Assembly: GCA_903866255.1 (NCBI GenBank) | Contig: CAIPMW010000080.1 | Location: 1 to 45,865 of the forward strand | Reading direction: 5' to 3' | DNA: 45,865 nucleotides | Origin: an uncultured Chlorobiaceae bacterium | Lineage (GTDB): Bacteria; Bacteroidota; Chlorobiia; Chlorobiales; Chlorobiaceae | Shown: positions 533 to 10,316 of the stretch, in pieces | Layout: every line of letters starts with the position of its first letter | Position numbering within the stretch: position 1 is the first letter of the stretch | The notes under the pieces: generated by a model | Told to the model about the DNA's origin: nothing | Databases searched by the model: none | What the model saw: the letters and a program-made list of their open reading frames with translations, nothing else | Made by a program: the position numbers and the translations under genes

Positions 533-577
533 ATCGGGATAGGGGACGGCCAGAAATCCTGTCCGTTCCCCTCCCAG

Positions 578-611
578 ACCACCCGGCATGCGGGTCCGCA
601 CCGGGCGGTTC
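578..611 (-). ncRNA. Domain V of outer class-C intron
   Basis: A 34-nt hairpin beginning GAACCGCCCGG at 611 and closing with CCGGGTGGT at 578. All helix positions pair, including the expected G.U wobble in the triad region, so this catalytic domain looks intact. Domain VI (about 570-535) follows and leads to the 3' end at 533. Confidence 0.75.
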
Positions 612-1217
612 GAGTAGTTGAGGTCATGAGAGTCGGGGTACGCCAAGTTTATCGAAGTAGGCAATGGGCATAACGCGGTTCATCTCGTAACGGCTCTTGT
701 GCCACCAGCGGCACACATTCAACGCCACTCTTCCGGCTTGTTCTTCACTCGCACCCATTCTCCGTATTTCACGATATACCGTCGTTCCCCGTCGCCATTG
801 CTTGAGTTGCAACGCACGCAGTCGGTGCCGCAGCCATCCATCCAATTTCTGAAATATACTGGGCGTTTGAGCCAATTTGAAATAGGCTTTCCAGCCCGGC
901 ATGTAACGCCTCAGTTCTTCAGCAACCTCATTCAGACTGCGCCCGCACGTTCGGCGTGTAATCTGCCGAATGCGCTTCTTGAAAGTAGCTATCGCTTTGT
1001 AGGCTACGGCGCGTCTTATCTCCCCTCCGGGCCCTTGCCAGAAGTGGAAGCCCAGAAACTTCCTGCCATAAGCACGCGTCACTGCCGTTTTGCTTTCGTT
1101 CACTTTCAAATGAAGTCGGTCGTAGAGCTTCCGCATTCCCACCAGCACCCGTTCACCCGCCTTCTCGTAAACGTTACGTCGAGTCACCCCAGGGAACCGC
1201 CCCCCAAGGTGCTCACA

Positions 1218-1251
1218 GATACGGACGTGAACGTCTCCGCTCATCCGGCTC
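1218..1251 (-). ncRNA. Domain V of inner group II intron
   Basis: A 34-nt hairpin beginning GAGCCG at 1251 and ending TATC at 1218, directly after the maturase stop codon. It is the catalytic domain of the ribozyme. The 3' strand reads CGTATC, where the usual partner of GAGCCG is CGGTTC. This leaves mismatches opposite G3 and C4 of the catalytic A-G-C triad. Confidence 0.8.
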
Positions 1252-2500
1252 CTCCTATTCCAGCCTGTCCATATAGTAAACGCCAGTGCGCGAACAATTG
1301 AGTGTTTTGCCGAGCTATACGCTCCAACCAGTGCATTGCTTGGCGTTTATGGCCTTTCAAACGCTTGAACTTTCGCGTAGCCCACAGCATGAGTTTGCGA
1401 TCTATGTGTCGCAAGGTTGGATAGAGTGCAGATTGATAATATGCACTGTAGTAGTTTACCCATCCATGGATTACCGCGTTAAACATTCGGGCCAAGTCAT
1501 CCAGTGCTTTATCACTGCGGAGAGGCAGTTTCCAGCTTCGGACTTCCTGCCGGATTGCTTTTGTGGCTTTGTTGCTGACCGCCGGACTGAAGTTGATAAA
1601 GAACTTCCCCCACCGGTTCTTTGACCGTCGCGGCCTGAATGTAAAGCCCAAAAAGTCAAAGCTGGTTTCCGAATAGTCCCCACGCCGATCACCATCTTTA
1701 CAGTAGACAATCCGGGTTTTCTCTGGGTGAAGCTCTAATTTACAGTCTTTAAACCGTTGCTTCAGTGCTGCCAGTAGCTCCTCTGCCTGTTCTTGTGTCT
1801 GACAGTGGCAAACACCATCATCCGCGTATCTCTCAAATGAAATCTGCGGATAATTTCGCTGCATCCACACATCAAACGTGTAATGCAGAAACACATTGGC
1901 CAGGAGTGGACTGATGACTCCCCCTTGGGGCGTACCTCTATCCCTTTTCTGCAAGGTTCCGTCCGGCATTTGCACGGATGCTTTCAGCCACCGCTCGATA
2001 TAAAGCAACACCCAAGGTTCTTGGGTATGCCGACGCACTGCCAGCATCAGGAGTTCATGATCAATTGCATCAAAGAAACCCTTGATGTCGAGTTCAACAA
2101 CCCAGTTGTTACGCCAGCAGCGCTTGCGCGCTTGCCCTATCGCTTGATGTGCTGATTTGCCGGGACGGTACCCGTACGAATCAGGATGGAAGTATGGCTC
2201 CACCTTTGGTTCCAGTGCTTGTTTAACCACCATCTGGGCTATCCGGTCGGCTATCGTTGGCACTCCTAATGGGCGAATGCCTCCGTCTGCCTTGGGTATC
2301 TCTACCCTTTTTACCGGTGGCGGCATATAGCTTCCTGATGACAACCGATTCCAGAGCTTGTAAAGATTATTTTTTATCTCTTTGTCAAACTCTTCTATCG
2401 ACTGCCCGTCCACTCCCGCCCCGCCCCGATTGGCTTTCACTCTTTTGTACGCATCCCATACCTGACGTTTGGCTATGGAAAACGACTTTGTCTGATTCAT
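1241..2500 (-). CDS. ltrA: Inner group II intron reverse transcriptase/maturase
   Basis: A complete 419-residue intron-encoded protein. RT motifs run in order: KANRGGAGVDG, GIRPLGVPTIADRIAQ, YGYRPGKSAH, VELDIKGFFDAIDH, GTPQGGVISPLLANV and the catalytic FERYADDG. FDFLGFTFRPR and the maturase domain with GWVNYYSAYY follow. Such proteins bind their own intron RNA to help splicing and copy it into DNA at a target site. There is no C-terminal HNH endonuclease. GGAGG lies 6 nt before the ATG at 2500, supporting this start. The frame shows no lesions, so the protein could still be made even if its ribozyme is impaired. Confidence 0.93.
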   Translation of the reverse strand: MNQTKSFSIAKRQVWDAYKRVKANRGGAGVDGQSIEEFDKEIKNNLYKLWNRLSSGSYMPPPVKRVEIPKADGGIRPLGVPTIADRIAQMVVKQALEPKVEPYFHPDSYGYRPGKSAHQAIGQARKRCWRNNWVVELDIKGFFDAIDHELLMLAVRRHTQEPWVLLYIERWLKASVQMPDGTLQKRDRGTPQGGVISPLLANVFLHYTFDVWMQRNYPQISFERYADDGVCHCQTQEQAEELLAALKQRFKDCKLELHPEKTRIVYCKDGDRRGDYSETSFDFLGFTFRPRRSKNRWGKFFINFSPAVSNKATKAIRQEVRSWKLPLRSDKALDDLARMFNAVIHGWVNYYSAYYQSALYPTLRHIDRKLMLWATRKFKRLKGHKRQAMHWLERIARQNTQLFAHWRLLYGQAGIGGAG

Positions 2501-4236
2501 GCAAATCCTCCCATTGCTGGTTGTTCACCCGTTTCAGACCGAATAGGGTAACCCCTTCGCTCCAGTTCCATTACAGAACCTTCATCACTACTACAGGTTA
2601 CTCCGCCCCTGTACCCCGCCTCGGTACTCTGACACTTGGAGGATCTCTCCTTGTGTTTCTCCCTTAACATCGGGGTGACAGGTTCCCACGTTCCGCACAA
2701 GAGCCTGAACCGTGTTCTCGCCACCTTTATGCCGGATGCCGTCTGGCCAGTAAGCAGGTTGCTTCCAGACTTATCCCGGGTTAACGACTCCCTCCCGGTT
2801 TTGACATCGTTCCTACGCTTTCGGCACGTCATCAGTGGTTCATTTGCATTCGACTCCACGGTTCTTATCTGACAGGGTCTTGCCCCGCCTTTTCCTGACT
2901 CGCTCACCACCACATCTCTTAAATGCAGCAGCAGCAGGTGATTTGAAGTCTCCGCCTGTACGGCGACTCCGAAGGGCCCACCTTCATCTCTTGTGCAGCA
3001 TGGCGGCACAGAGGACTTTCGTCCTCCTGTGCGCCTTCGTGGCGCACAGTCATCGGTGTATTTCACGAATTTATGGCCGCGTCGCTCCAGTTCCCGATCT
3101 ACTTCGTCCAGCAACACGTTTGCCAGTAGCGGCGACAGTGGCCCGCCTTGCGGTGTCCCCTCGTGTCGCTCTTTGGTTACGCCTTGTGCCATAATGCCTG
3201 CCTCAAGGTATCGACGTATCAGCCGTAACACAGCTTTATCGTTAATCCTTTTCGACAGTCTATCCATGAGCACATCATGATTGACCCTATCGAAAAATCG
3301 CTCCAAATCGACATCCACTACAACCCGGTATCCTTCTTGCACGTACCGTTGCGCTTGCAACACTGCATCTTGTGCTCTCCGGCCAGGTCGAAAGCCGTAA
3401 CTTGATTTGGAGAATGTCGGGTCAAACAATGGTTGCAGGATTTGCAACAGGGCCTGTTGAATCAGACGATCAATAACGGTCGGTATGCCAAGGTCACGCT
3501 TGTCACCACCAGATTTGGGAATTGCTACCCAGCGTACCGGTTTTGGCCAGTATAGGCCCGTTAATAGCTCTTCCCGTATCCGTGACCATTCGCTTTTCAG
3601 ATACTCTATCGTTGCCTCAATCGTCAATCCATCTACCCCTGCACTTCCGCGATTGGCCTTGACATGTTTCCATGCCTTGACCATATTCTCCCTTTCGACG
3701 ACCTGCAACAGCAAGTCGTTTCGTCCTAAACCTTTGGTTTCATGTTGCGCCAATCCTGCTTCATCGCGTCCAATACCAGACAAGGCTTCACCCTGCCCTC
3801 CCTTGGCTCGCTCCGGTTGCCCGGACTTCTGATGCAATGCACAATTAAGCAACATATCCTCCAGTTTTCCTTCTCGTTCGGCCCTTCACTCTTTACGAGC
3901 TATTACGGCCTCTGCTGACTTCTCGCCCCACATTGCTGCGTCGCCCTTTCAGGCATAAGGCGAGACCTCCCCAGGTAAGAGTTCGATCCTTCCCCGCACA
4001 ACCGCCGGATTTACGCAGCCTGACCCTTGACCACAAGAGCTTCGCAGTTAGATGCCTGCTCGCCCTGATCGGCTTCGCCTCGTATCCGATTTTTGTTCAT
4101 CGGCTCGCGGTTTCGTTTCACGCTTCCTCTCCACACTCGGTCACCCTCATGCAGTTGCGCTTCCCTTCGTTCGCTGTGGTCAACTCACGGGAGGACTTTC
4201 ACCTCCAAGATCTTGCCCATGTGGGGGCACATCAAC

Positions 4237-4307
4237 TACCCCGCAGCAGAGCTACGGGGTATGAATTCATGTTTAAGATTTTCTTCCCGAAGCAAAGCTT
4301 CGAGGAA
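4237..4307. repeat. Two tandem REP-like palindromes
   Basis: Palindrome one spans 4237-4261: TACCCCG, one mismatch, AGC, loop AGA, GCT, CGGGGTA. Palindrome two spans 4284-4307: TTCCCGAAGC, loop AAA, then GCTTCG-A-GGAA with one bulged A. They share the pattern CCCG-AGCA-AGCT-CG-GG, so they look like two units of one repeat family 22 nt apart. The first sits 6 nt upstream of the 5' splice site of the outer class-C intron. Whether the family is dispersed in the genome cannot be seen here. Confidence 0.65.
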
Positions 4308-4315
4308 TATGTCCT

Positions 4316-5062
4316 ATAGCGATTAAATTGTGCATTATCTGTATGATCACCGGGGTTCTTTGCCATCATTCATGGTCATGACGGATGGCAAGAAGTCAGA
4401 CATTCGAGTCGCAAAAAGTGAGGCGAAACTTGATTTGCACCTTCTGGCGGACAGCATTATTTCTGTTGACCGGGCATATATTGACTTCGAATGGCTGTAG
4501 AGCCTTGATCAACGTCACGTCTGGTTTGTCACACGCGCTAAAACCTCAATGCAGTACCGTATTGTCGGACAGCATCAACCAATTGATCATCCTCAAGTAA
4601 CTCGGGATGATGAAATCGAGTTAATCGTTGAGAAAACCAGAAAAAAATATCCAAAAACCTTTCGCCTGGTCTGCTATACGCATCCTGAAACCAAGAAAGT
4701 TTATACATTTATCACCAACAATATGAAACTCCCTGCAGCAACGATTGCAGAGATTTACAAGTCTCGTTGGCAGATTGAACTCTTTTTCAAGTGGATCAAA
4801 CAGAACCTGAAAATCAAGTCATTCCTTGGAACAAGCCAGAATGCTGTGTTATCCCAGATATGGGTGGCTATGTGCTATTATTTGTTATTATCGTACATCA
4901 AATTTCAGACAAAATACAGTTACTCTTTGCAGGCTTTGACAAGAATGATCGCTTCTGTGATCATGGAGCAACGATTGCTTATTGATATTTTGTCGTTGGA
5001 TGAGCGCTCACTACAAACAGTACGGGATCCTGTTGCACAGCTCTCTTTATTTTAACCGGACA
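4316..5062 (+). pseudogene. IS4-type transposase remnant (right)
   Basis: The frame contains YDHRGSLPSFMVMTDGKKSD, then VDRAYIDFEW (second catalytic Asp), the YKSRWQIELFFKWIKQ block with the catalytic Glu, and ends QLSLF at a TAA (5053-5055) in the inverted repeat. The gene is broken: the N-terminal part with the first catalytic Asp is missing, about 2 extra bases near 4331 shift the start of the homology, and an in-frame TAG at about 4498 replaces a residue after DFEWL. An open stretch from 4549 to 5055 remains. It faces away from the left remnant and is a related but diverged copy. Confidence 0.85.
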
Positions 5063-6539: not shown

Positions 6540-7367
6540 CTACTGCCAGCCATTAACCATCTTGAAGATCTCCCTGTCACCAATCGGCACAGGAATTGAC
6601 GCTATGGGGGCATCCTGAACAAGGGTGTCAGCAATTTCGTTGTATGGTACCAGGCACTCGGCTTTTCCCTCAGTGTCATCCATGGCAAAAAGCGTTTTAC
6701 CGGCAAAGCGGCTTTTGCGGATCAGTTCGTGATAGGGCACTTTGGCGAGAAGCCTGGTTCCAACTTTTTCGGCGAACTGGTCGAGCATGTTGGTGCCGCC
6801 GCCTGTGGTATAATCAACTCGGTTGGCAACAATACCGGCAAGTTTCACCTTGTAACGAACACTTTTTTGCTGGATGGCCATACAGAGACGATTGGCAGCA
6901 AAAATGCTGTCGAAGTCGTTGGTGGCAATAATAATGGCATAGTCTGCATAGTTGAGCGGGGCGCTGAAACCGCCGCAGACGACATCACCAAGAACGTCAA
7001 AAAGGATAACGTCATATTTTTCGTAGAGGCCAAGCTCCTGTAGCAGGGTGACTGATTCACCAACAACGTAGCCACCGCAGCCGCTTCCTGCGGGAGGTCC
7101 ACCAGCTTCAAGGCAGTCTATGCCTGCAAACCCAGTTTCGATAATATCCTCTGCACTCAGCTCCTCGTGGTGAAAATCAACCTCTTCAAGAGCTTCGATA
7201 ACAGTTTTCTGAAGTTTTCCGGTAATGGGAAAGGTACTGTCATGCTTGGGATCGCAACCGATCTGCAGTACCTTGGCGCCTTTCAGAGCAAGCGCCGCTG
7301 AAATGTTGGCACTGGTGGTGCTTTTTCCTATACCGCCCTTTCCATAAACCGCTAAGACTAAACTCAT
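6540..7367 (-). CDS. bchL: Light-independent protochlorophyllide reductase, iron protein BchL
   Basis: The 275-residue product is the ATP-driven electron donor of dark-operative protochlorophyllide reductase, which reduces ring D of protochlorophyllide in bacteriochlorophyll synthesis. It is a NifH relative. The P-loop GKGGIGKST spans residues 9-17, and the two cysteines that hold the inter-subunit [4Fe-4S] cluster are C97 (GSGCGG) and C131 (VVCGGF). Length and both switch regions are normal, so it should be functional. It is the last gene of bchN-bchB-bchL, 36 nt after bchB. The dimer hands electrons to the BchN-BchB complex. Confidence 0.97.
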
Positions 7368-7403
7368 AATAATTAACAGAAGAATATGATTGATAGAAAA
7401 ATC

Positions 7404-9014
7404 TTATCCGCCGAGCGACTCTTTAGCCTTTCTGAAGACCTCAACGGTAACCACAGGTTCGCCAATACTGCGTGCAAAGGTGTCAGTGTTCTTTCTCACC
7501 TTTTTGCGAACGAAAAACGGCACCTTCTTGAGCATGGTTTCAGCCTCATCAGTCCATTTCATCTCTCCATCTTCAGAAAGAACGAGGGGCTCAGAGGTAA
7601 CTGGCGCACCAGCTTGTGAGACCTCAGCAGGAATACTGTCGGATGGGGCAACCCGTAACTCTTCAGGAGAAGCGCTCTCTTCATACTCCAGACCGGCATC
7701 ACCAAAAAAGTCAATGAGGTGCTTTTCGAGGCCAAGTTTGCAGGAAAGATAGACTCTGTCAGCAATAACATCAGCTCCGGCAAAACCGAAAAACGGATAA
7801 TAGCCAAGCAGATGGTTTTCGATATGGGTTGGGGGACAGACAACCATACAGGGCACATCAAGCTTGCGGCAACTATGGCGCTCCATCTGTGTTCCGCAGA
7901 CCAGGTCAGGCATCTCATCCTCAATAACCCTGGCAACATCCTGAAACCGATCAGTGACCATAAGCGCTCCGGGAAGGTACCCCTCCAGCTCCTTGCGCAC
8001 CCAGTCGGCATGCTGTTCGAGATAGGTACCAGCACCGATAATCTGCATACCAAGCTCATCGCGCAAAAACTTTACAATACCAACCGTATGCGTGGCATCT
8101 CCAAAAACAAAAGCCTTTTTATTGCTGAAACTCTCCATGTCAGCCGTGCGGGCAAACCATGGAACACCGCTCGGAGCACTAAGACCATCAAGCGAAAACG
8201 CCTTGAGATTCGGCATGACAAGAGGAGAAGCGCTCCTCTGGGCGCCAATGGTATTCAGTTTTTCAAGAAGTGAGCGCAGCCATGCCATAGTAGGTTGGAC
8301 TCCAAGAGGCGCTTCTGTGAGTGATGGCATAGAGAACGTCTCTTCAAGATATGCGGCAGCATTGACACCAATTTCCCGATAGGGCGCAATATTGAGCCAT
8401 GCAGCAGGAAGTTTGCGGAGATCCTCGATGCTGCTTCCCCATGGAGCAACCACATTCACCGTGATACCCAGCGTCTGCAACATTCGGGTGATACTGGTCA
8501 GATTGGCTCGAAGGTGAAAACCAAGTGAGGTAAAACCAAGAATATTCACCGACGGCAATGCCGTTTTGTCCTGGGTAACAGCATAACGCTTCACCAGTTC
8601 AGTAAACAGGCCATCCGCCGCCTCATTTTCCGAAACCCTGAAGGGATTGAGCGCATAAACCATCAATCGTTCATTCGACACACCGGAATGGGCGGCAAGC
8701 TGATGGAGATCCTCCTGAAGCAGAGCGGTACTGCAGCTCGGCGCAATAACGATAAGTTCAGGATTGTAGTGGTGATCAACCTGCTGCAAGGTGGTCGGAA
8801 GTCGTGAAACTCCCTGTGCAAGATCTCTGCCGCGAACGACGCTGATGGACAGACCAGGGAATTGAGGAGTTCTTTCAAGCATGGTGTAGGTGGCCGTAAT
8901 GTAATCATCGCCTTGCGGTGCGTGATAAACGGTGTGAACCCCTTTCATACTGTTGGTGACCCGGCTGATACCATGAAGGGCGGTTCCTTCATAGAGCCAA
9001 AAAGCTAAGCGCAT
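7404..9014 (-). CDS. bchB: Light-independent protochlorophyllide reductase subunit B
   Basis: The 536-residue product is one half of the catalytic BchN-BchB heterotetramer, related to NifK. BchB binds protochlorophyllide and supplies the unusual Asp ligand to the [4Fe-4S] cluster shared with BchN. The N-terminus [16 protein letters not shown] is typical, and QGDDY around residues 34-38 contains the conserved Asp36. The APSCST motif has C94. The acidic linker near residues 430-470 and the C-terminal [20 protein letters not shown] domain are those of the family. It lies 39 nt after bchN and 36 nt before bchL, in one operon. Confidence 0.97.
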
Positions 9015-9053
9015 ACTTCTATAACGTTTGTTGTTGCATTTTCTTGCAGTGAA

Positions 9054-10316
9054 TTATTCGGCACTCGGCATAACACCTTCAAGCCATACTTTTTCATCAA
9101 ATGCCAGCAGCTTGCTGCGACGCTGGAGCGGTGACACAAAGAGATTGGCAAGAGAGATCACTCCTGACCAACTGTGAATGGGCATAAGCATGAACTCCAT
9201 GCTCCACTTCACCACAAAACCGTTACCAACAAACGGGTTGGCTGTCATCAGCGAGGTGACAATCAGATCGGGTTTAATGCGCCTGACATCCTCAAGCTGG
9301 CGATGAAAGTTGGGCTGTTCAACAACACGCACACCGTCAAGAGCCTCAAGCTCACGAGCATGAAACTTTTTGATGATATACGCACTGCTGCACTCGACAA
9401 CATCAGCACCGGCATTGTGGAGAAAACGTGCAAGCGGCAGCTCCATCATGGTATCGGCGGTCAAAAAGACTTTTTTGCCTTTCAGAAGATCGGTCTGTGT
9501 GCGAATCTTCTCCCATGCAGCTTTTTCCCGATCGCGAAGATCGACAGTAATGCCGAATTCGCGGGCCAAATCCTCCCAGAATGCTCTGGTGCCATCGGGA
9601 CCAAAGGGAAAGAGCGAGTGAAGAACGCTGGATCCACGCTCTCGGGAAAGCTTGACGGCAACTCTTGAAAGATAGGGCTGTATCGACGCAAGAACAGTAT
9701 CAGGGCCAATAGCGGGCATCCTGTCGAAGCGCGATTCAGGAAGAAATCCGCCAACAGGAATACCGAGCTCTTCTGCCTCGGCCCTGAGATCATCAGCCGT
9801 TGAATCATTGACGGAGCCCAGGAAAACCACCTTTTTCTCTCCGGCAGGTGCCTGGGGACAGAATGGCACAAGTGCAGCAAGCACAGAATCTTCAGCCTGG
9901 GTAAAATTATAGACGAGGCCGCTGGCAGGAACAAAGAGAACAGGAACTTGCGGAGTACTGAGATGGTGAGCCAGCCCTTTGAAGTCAACCTTCATCACCT
10001 CGGGAGTACATGAAGAGAGGAGAAATATAACGGACGGGTTATGATCAGCCTTGATTTCACTGATAATTTCCTGAAGGGTAGGCTCATTCTTTGAAAGATC
10101 CCCCTCCTCCATAAGAGCAATGCCAAAGCGCGGTTTGGCAAAAATCATCATACCAAGAGCATTCTGCAAAAAATGGGCGCAGGTATGCGTTCCAAGGATG
10201 AGAAAAAAGCTGTCCTTGATCTTCTGATACATCCAACCAACACAGGCCAGACCACAAAAACTGTGCGTAACGTTATCTTCCTTGATTATCTGAATATCAC
10301 CGGGAACCTGCATCAT
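9054..10316 (-). CDS. bchN: Light-independent protochlorophyllide reductase subunit N
   Basis: The 420-residue product is the NifD-like half of the BchN-BchB catalytic component. It supplies three cysteine ligands to the [4Fe-4S] cluster: C21 (HSFCGLAC), C46 (GTHTCAHF) and C103 (LLSSCTPEV), all present. A tight [15 protein letters not shown] helix and the [12 protein letters not shown] block near the end match the family. It is the first bch gene transcribed. The 94-bp gap upstream is the largest in the run from engB and is the likely place for a bch promoter, though no convincing one was identified. Confidence 0.97.

Follow-up and report, generated by a model that had tools for sequence, protein, structure and literature searches.

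Introduction

Group II introns that lie within other group II introns (twintrons) are known already, and in an archaeon such introns are known to home into other members of their kind. In M. acetivorans this homing is repeated and site-specific (PMC4424553), and in the TeI3/TeI4 system of T. elongatus the insertion lies in the gene for the intron-encoded protein (IEP) of the outer intron (PMC2882425); the TeI3 inner introns lack an open reading frame (ORF) and lie between two start ATGs, and the inner intron of Trichodesmium lies in domain 1 (PMC4649490). Here we describe a nested pair in a stretch of 45,865 nucleotides from an uncultured Chlorobiaceae bacterium (the window; contig CAIPMW010000080.1), in which a IIC-like outer group II intron carries a second group II intron in the codons for the catalytic YxDD motif of its own reverse transcriptase (RT). 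The pair resembles the twintrons of T. elongatus, M. acetivorans, and Trichodesmium in being a group II intron within another, but differs from the TeI3 and Trichodesmium cases in that the inner intron encodes an IEP and sits at RT catalytic codons, and in that its relatives are also found in a retron-type RT and in the RT of a diversity-generating retroelement (DGR).

Other systems share single features with the inner intron. RmInt1/RmInt2 of S. meliloti encode an endonuclease-less IEP and home into mobile-element sequences, with ISRm2011-2 and ISRm17 as canonical targets (PMC5894124); set beside them by description, the inner intron is alike in both respects, but the RmInt targets are not RT codons. 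Ll.LtrB / Ef.PcfG invades a conserved motif encoding the catalytic-histidine motifs of relaxases (PMC5072309), so that catalytic codons are again the target, but those of one enzyme class. In Hamiltonella defensa, three copies of c-Ha.de.I1 lie within other copies at a specific position (PMC3522654), which is likewise nested and site-specific insertion, but into the intron's own family and with no RT motif mentioned in the portion of the report seen. Among the matches listed (titles and abstract openings, with most subscription journals outside coverage), none describes the catalytic codons of RTs as a homing site common to RT classes.

We consider it highly likely that the inner intron prefers the codons of the RT catalytic motif as its homing site, that it is directed there by its guide sequences, and that this preference extends across RT classes. 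Its relatives stand at the same codons of other RT genes, many of them unrelated, apparently because these guide sequences complement the codons.

Structure of the nested pair

Both introns are on the minus strand. The outer intron spans 533–4230, and its RT gene, which begins at 3855, is cut directly after Tyr-Thr-Asp-Asp by the inner intron of 1870 nt (1178–3047, GTGCGCC...ACTCGAC), whose ends follow from frame joining, Rfam, and comparison with the related loci L142–L144. Excising 3047–1178 yields a single frame of 453 aa, in which YTDD is followed by T|GT (Cys) and NVYEK; among 15 candidate 3' ends (1170–1184) the frame is open with 4, and YTDD-CNVYEK arises with 1178 only. The Rfam match to D5-D6 (RF00029, 1178–1253, E 7.7e-5), which is independent of the frame, also ends on the predicted last base, 1178, at a score of 37.7 bits that is below the gathering score of 40, and D1-D4 of the inner intron (RF01999) is matched at 2868–2985 with 106.8 bits (E 4.8e-22). 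The outer intron has its own covariance-model matches to D1-D4, at 4150–3979 and 3955–3881. In these respects, the first-pass annotation was borne out: it had proposed a complete group II intron within another of a different type, located at the RT active-site codons, whose removal restores the outer frame with a split Cys codon, and had asked whether a covariance search would place the inner ends elsewhere.

The 5' part of the outer RT gene (3048–3855) carries the RT motifs up to YTDD and the first base of the Cys codon (RVT_1), and the 3' part (624–1177) runs from the second base of that codon to the stop and holds the maturase domain GIIM; Pfam shows no endonuclease domain. The inner IEP (1241–2500, 419 aa) matches RVT_1 and GIIM as well, with RdRP_1 below the cut-off and no endonuclease domain found by Pfam. 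Five plasmid relatives are 61–67% identical. The inner element is probably an endonuclease-less bacterial group II intron of class D/IIB3, like RmInt1.

The joined protein matches at E ≤ 1e-100 in 6 of 65 genus genomes, including the window's own. In one of these (G209, locus L142) the gene is uninterrupted and its product 97% identical over 453 aa, and the natural empty site encodes RYADDC (...GATACGCCGATGACT|GTAACG...). Because the whole pair lies within a single contig (G000:C80) and the empty site exists elsewhere, an assembly artefact, the other possibility raised at first pass, is unlikely, and the precise ends also speak against it. The window copy has YTDD for YADD and, shortly past the site, a 9-nt net deletion (VRSQR to EK), reading CNVYEKAGE where L142 reads CNVYVRSQRAGE; L146 (G338) matches L142 here. 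Because of the YADD to YTDD change and the three residues lost relative to the uninterrupted L142 and L146, the outer RT may have ceased to be active. Differences between the window and L142 at codon positions 1/2/3 number 6/4/11 upstream and 2/3/9 downstream of the site (deleted stretch left out), a third-position bias that hints at constraint at some time.

Recurrence at RT catalytic codons

Relatives of the inner intron were collected by IEP homology from genome contigs (32 loci, the closest being in Chlorobiaceae metagenome-assembled genomes; 30 of 394 phylum genomes hold relatives at E ≤ 1e-100), from plasmids (15 of many matches examined), and from viral contigs by a junction pattern. 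The 31 resolved insertions are a sample of convenience and not a random one, and the sites of L139, L179, L006, and the distant loci L046–L049 and L051–L070 are uncounted. Seventeen of the 31 interrupt 17 distinct RT genes in one and the same codon phase, just past YxDD plus one base. What had been taken for one particular pair is instead a single instance of a site that the inner intron's family has entered repeatedly.

Both junctions are on one contig in the window, L015, L019, L013, L085, L126 (of which L121 is the same element, seen from its 5' side), L135/L174 (the same host intron, counted once), L136, L138, and L175. The halves are spread over two contigs of one genome for L155+L170 (G370) and L156+L168 (G193; L039 is the same insertion, in a named bin). 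Only the 3' side is seen in L012, L017, and L016, where YxDD is out of view and the RT resumes at the next residue, and only the 5' side in L176, whose copy diverges before the 3' end of the intron, and L178.

All but two of these insertions (15/17) were reached without any requirement for Asp codons, L085 and L126/L121 being found only by a pattern that demands them. Two further patterns made no demand on the target. The one for the 5' end of this lineage yielded 5 copies, each in a different one of the 394 phylum genomes (4 in RT genes and 1 RAYT-like), and the one for the 3' end yielded 8 junctions in 7 of the 65 genus genomes (6 RT, 1 RAYT-like, 1 unassigned). When the viral collection was searched with the IEP, 6 stretches fitted a pattern and none was a relative, but this search is insensitive because it missed L121/L126, which are 57% relatives. 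The junction pattern found 61 viral loci, 3 of which carry the intron (L085, L121, and L126; two distinct insertions), and the other 58 have no similarity to the inner IEP or intron at E 1e-3.

Two of the insertions have an unusual structure. At L175 (1463–5184), an S. meliloti RT gene holds two identical intron copies arranged head to tail, and at L085 (1631–4506, reverse strand) an insert of 2876 nt splits the inner IEP between RY and ADD, by either phage integration or mis-assembly.

Classes of host RT

Host RTs were identified with family models for the window and 10 scanned hosts or parts, and by tblastn, record annotation, or motifs by eye for L013, L085, L017, L175, L176, and L178. The group II model TIGR04416 is the best one for 8 of the 10, scoring above its cut-off in L155+L170, L015, L138, L019, and L136 and below it in the partial or truncated L135, L012, and L016. 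Independently, Rfam recovers the two nested introns with both their 5' and 3' parts in L138 (outer D1-D4-5) and L136 (outer D1-D4-2); in L135 it recovers the inner intron in full and, of the outer one, the 5' part (D1-D4-6). The RF00029 match for the inner intron stops exactly at the predicted final base in L126, L135, L136, and L138.

Two hosts are of other classes. The host RT of L126, on a phage-like contig, is retron-type, with PADLOC RT_II-A as its best match (6.3e-53) and an NCBIfam retron_St85 match (1.7e-54) whose 185 bits are below the cut-off of 235. The host RT of G193, whose halves are on two contigs, scores 135 bits with TIGR04416, below the cut-off of 300, and matches phrog_1423 at 2.1e-112. 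It is cut at RYVDD and is accompanied by an FGE-sulfatase/NACHT protein with a terminal variable repeat, a bAvd protein (5.6e-22), and a template repeat of 123 nt that is 83% identical to the variable repeat, with all 21 of 21 mismatches at template adenines. Because of these surroundings, we regard it as a DGR RT.

In the neighbourhood of L126 (1–8717), ORFs that by eye resemble Thg1 and a GIY-YIG homing endonuclease adjoin the interrupted RT. At L171 (1260–6403) and L172 there is a DGR whose variable protein is of metallophosphatase-NACHT-FGE composition; another FGE protein is encoded downstream of its RT.

Pairing of guide and target

Covariation was assessed over 19 aligned intron 5' regions by scanning columns for their ability to pair with exon bases -1 to -7 of the same intron. 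The best column identifies exon-binding site 1 (EBS1), which in the inner intron is AGTCGTT (RNA AGUCGUU) at intron nt 259–265 (2783–2789, minus strand). It pairs with intron-binding site 1 (IBS1), GATGACT (3048–3054, minus strand), which consists of the two Asp codons and one further base, at 7/7 positions, two of them G-U. Own pairs score 6.13 at this column and other pairs 2.39, a difference of 3.74 against 0.97 for the runner-up, and none of 300 permutations, each taken at its best column, reached the real score. A candidate EBS2, GCGTA (RNA GCGUA) at intron nt 230–234 (2814–2818, minus strand), is the best column for exon -9 to -13, with column scores of 3.45 for own and 1.84 for other pairs. 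It fits the TACGC of the empty site in L142; the corresponding candidate IBS2 in the window, TACAC (3056–3060, minus strand; the Tyr codon and two Thr bases), has one mismatch. Taken together, EBS1 and the candidate EBS2 complement TACGC-x-GAYGACT, that is, the codons for Y-A-D-D plus one base.

EBS1 is AGTCGTT or TGTCGTT in 10 of the 19 introns, 9 of them at RT sites and the other being the RAYT-like L011. Where the target is different EBS1 has altered with it, as in GGTGGTC/GATCACC (L140), CTTAGTT/GACTAAG (L134), and TCCTGAC/GTCAGGA (L045), and also in L133 and L014.

The introns' own YADD codons are GAT GAT G in 7 of the 10 RT-site introns scored and pair poorly with their own guide, which may spare the introns from themselves. 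This reading is only suggestive, because relatives inserted elsewhere often have these codons too: the second Asp codon is GAT in 9/10 RT-site introns and 20/33 others (L085 unscored; counts only).

Mechanism and alternative explanations

We propose that the ribonucleoprotein of the inner intron would recognise YADD codons through EBS pairing, a step that the covariation backs, and that in the window the inner intron would have reverse-spliced (retrohomed) into the RT gene of a resident IIC-like intron. Splicing from the host mRNA would then return the host RT in frame, and the unspliced host RT would lose everything past the active-site codons. Few parts of RTs are as constrained as the YADD motif, and one family could therefore enter RTs of different retroelement classes at the same codon phase. 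Retrohoming and splicing, like any effect on the host element, are inferred, the first two from what is established about group II introns that lack an endonuclease, RmInt1 in particular (PMC5894124).

Several observations weigh against a preference for RT codons as such. Fourteen of the 31 resolved insertions are outside the RT codon site, 11 with a 5' junction and 3 (L027, L018, and L167) with the 3' junction only. The 5' junctions are in RAYT-like genes at FADG (L011/L043), in IS66-type genes at KYADH (L137, L140, and L141), in transposase-like genes at WHLDE (L133 and L177), and in L134, L014, L050, L045, and the outer intron of L136; the RAYT, IS3 (L050), and transposase-like labels are our assumptions or were assigned by eye, and the IS66 label is backed by neighbouring annotations. 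The pairing is imperfect in places, with a mismatch at -1 in L015 and L136 in addition to that in the window's IBS2. The 19 introns are not 19 independent events, because some are closely related (window/L015; L137/L140/L141). An IEP tree was built from 46 rows, L006 (90 residues) having been dropped from the 47 loci; two of the rows, L027 and L071, occupy less than half of the columns. On this tree the RT-site label requires 5 changes and the starred branches force 5, so that the RT-site introns are not one clade. Finally, the window's genome contains 4 TAYGCNGAYGAYT sites, 1 in an RT gene (C6) and 3 outside (at the start of an rpsL-like ORF and, for 2, in no long frame), and none of the 4 carries an intron. 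Because these sites are mostly non-RT and all intron-free, pairing alone fails to explain the RT preference.

A closely related explanation, to which we give slightly less than an even chance, is that recognition is of a short DNA motif (about TAYGC-GAY) present in several mobile-element genes, of which RTs are merely frequent carriers. It overlaps with a guide-directed preference for RT codons and differs from it only in what makes RTs frequent. The motif is similar to the KYADH sites of IS66-type genes and the RAYT-like FADG sites, whose introns have an EBS1 that matches them, the IS66-site introns are the sister group of the RT-site introns L085 and L135 in the IEP tree, and base pairing is all that was shown to select RTs. 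On the other hand, 3 of the 4 sites in the window's genome are non-RT, yet RT genes account for 6/8 of the 3' junctions in the genus and 4/5 of the 5' junctions in the phylum sample, small numbers in both cases. That a class D-like intron simply landed once in the RT gene of a IIC-like intron, with the YADD position a coincidence, would be an ordinary event, as bacterial twintrons are known (PMC4424553, PMC2882425), but it is very improbable given that 17 distinct RT genes are interrupted in one phase and that EBS1 is complementary to the site; a chance position is rejected on the identical phase.

The inner intron might also persist because it serves the outer maturase as a splicing switch, a regulatory symbiosis that we regard as unlikely. 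The outer frame is exactly restored, its differences from L142 are mostly at third positions, and the joined host RTs of L015, L136, L138, and L155+L170 are open to their normal end. Against this, the window copy has YTDD and lacks three residues beside the site, and the host 3' parts end after 27 codons in L019 and 25 in L135, although the latter host continues further in its L174 copy. The first-pass statement that the inner element controls the outer one would hold in principle, as the unspliced outer frame continues into the inner intron and stops at 2497, but is weakened by an outer RT that is altered at the site and may be inactive.

Apart from this comparison, the introns of L133 (2501) and L177 (1446), at WHLDE| codons of transposase-like genes, possibly mark a second catalytic-codon homing site.

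Other features of the locus

The unspliced outer frame (2497–3855) is open through the first 547 nt of the inner intron and closes with a TGA that overlaps the start codon of the inner IEP in ATGA (2497–2500, minus strand). The same open frame is present in L015 and in L011, where the start is GTG, and absent from the other 16 introns checked (3/19 including the window); 1 of 2000 Markov resamples had an open frame here. A coding extension was considered and rejected, as differences between the window and L011 are even over the codon positions (25/23/20) and the frame is open in 3/19 introns.

The outer intron runs from 5' GTGCCCCC at 4230 to 3' ...CCCCTATCCCGAT at 533. Similarity to L142, L143, and L144 ends at 533 in 3/3 cases, and the alignments start at 4266 (L142, with part of a hairpin in common), 4235 (L143), and 4230 (L144). 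Its 5' exon (4231–4264, minus strand) carries the hairpin CCCCGTAGCTCTGCTGCGGGG followed by TAGTTGAT. IIC introns typically insert directly downstream of rho-independent terminators. In L143 and L144, a terminator-like hairpin and T-run, seen by eye, precede GTGCGCC, whereas the hairpin of the window and of L142 lacks a T-run.

Transposase remnants, which we take to be IS4-type, are found on either side of the outer intron (271–530 and 4327–5055), with a Pfam match (DDE_Tnp_1) only for the ORF at 4549–5055. Further along, at 6540–10316, are ORFs that presumably correspond to bchL, bchB, and bchN.

Implications

That YADD serves as a homing address through which this family preys on retroelements generally (group II classes, retron-type, and DGR), leaving its hosts dependent on splicing, is a tentative proposal that we think more doubtful than the preference for RT codons itself. 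Guide complementarity to the codons of the catalytic motif would provide a mechanistic reason for the parasitism of unrelated retroelements by one retroelement. The insertions also establish a physical link between group II introns and both a retron-type RT and a DGR with active-looking template and variable repeats, which makes the idea of splicing as a gate on host retroelement systems testable. In addition, the intron family may be viewed as a natural RNA-guided probe for RT active-site codons.

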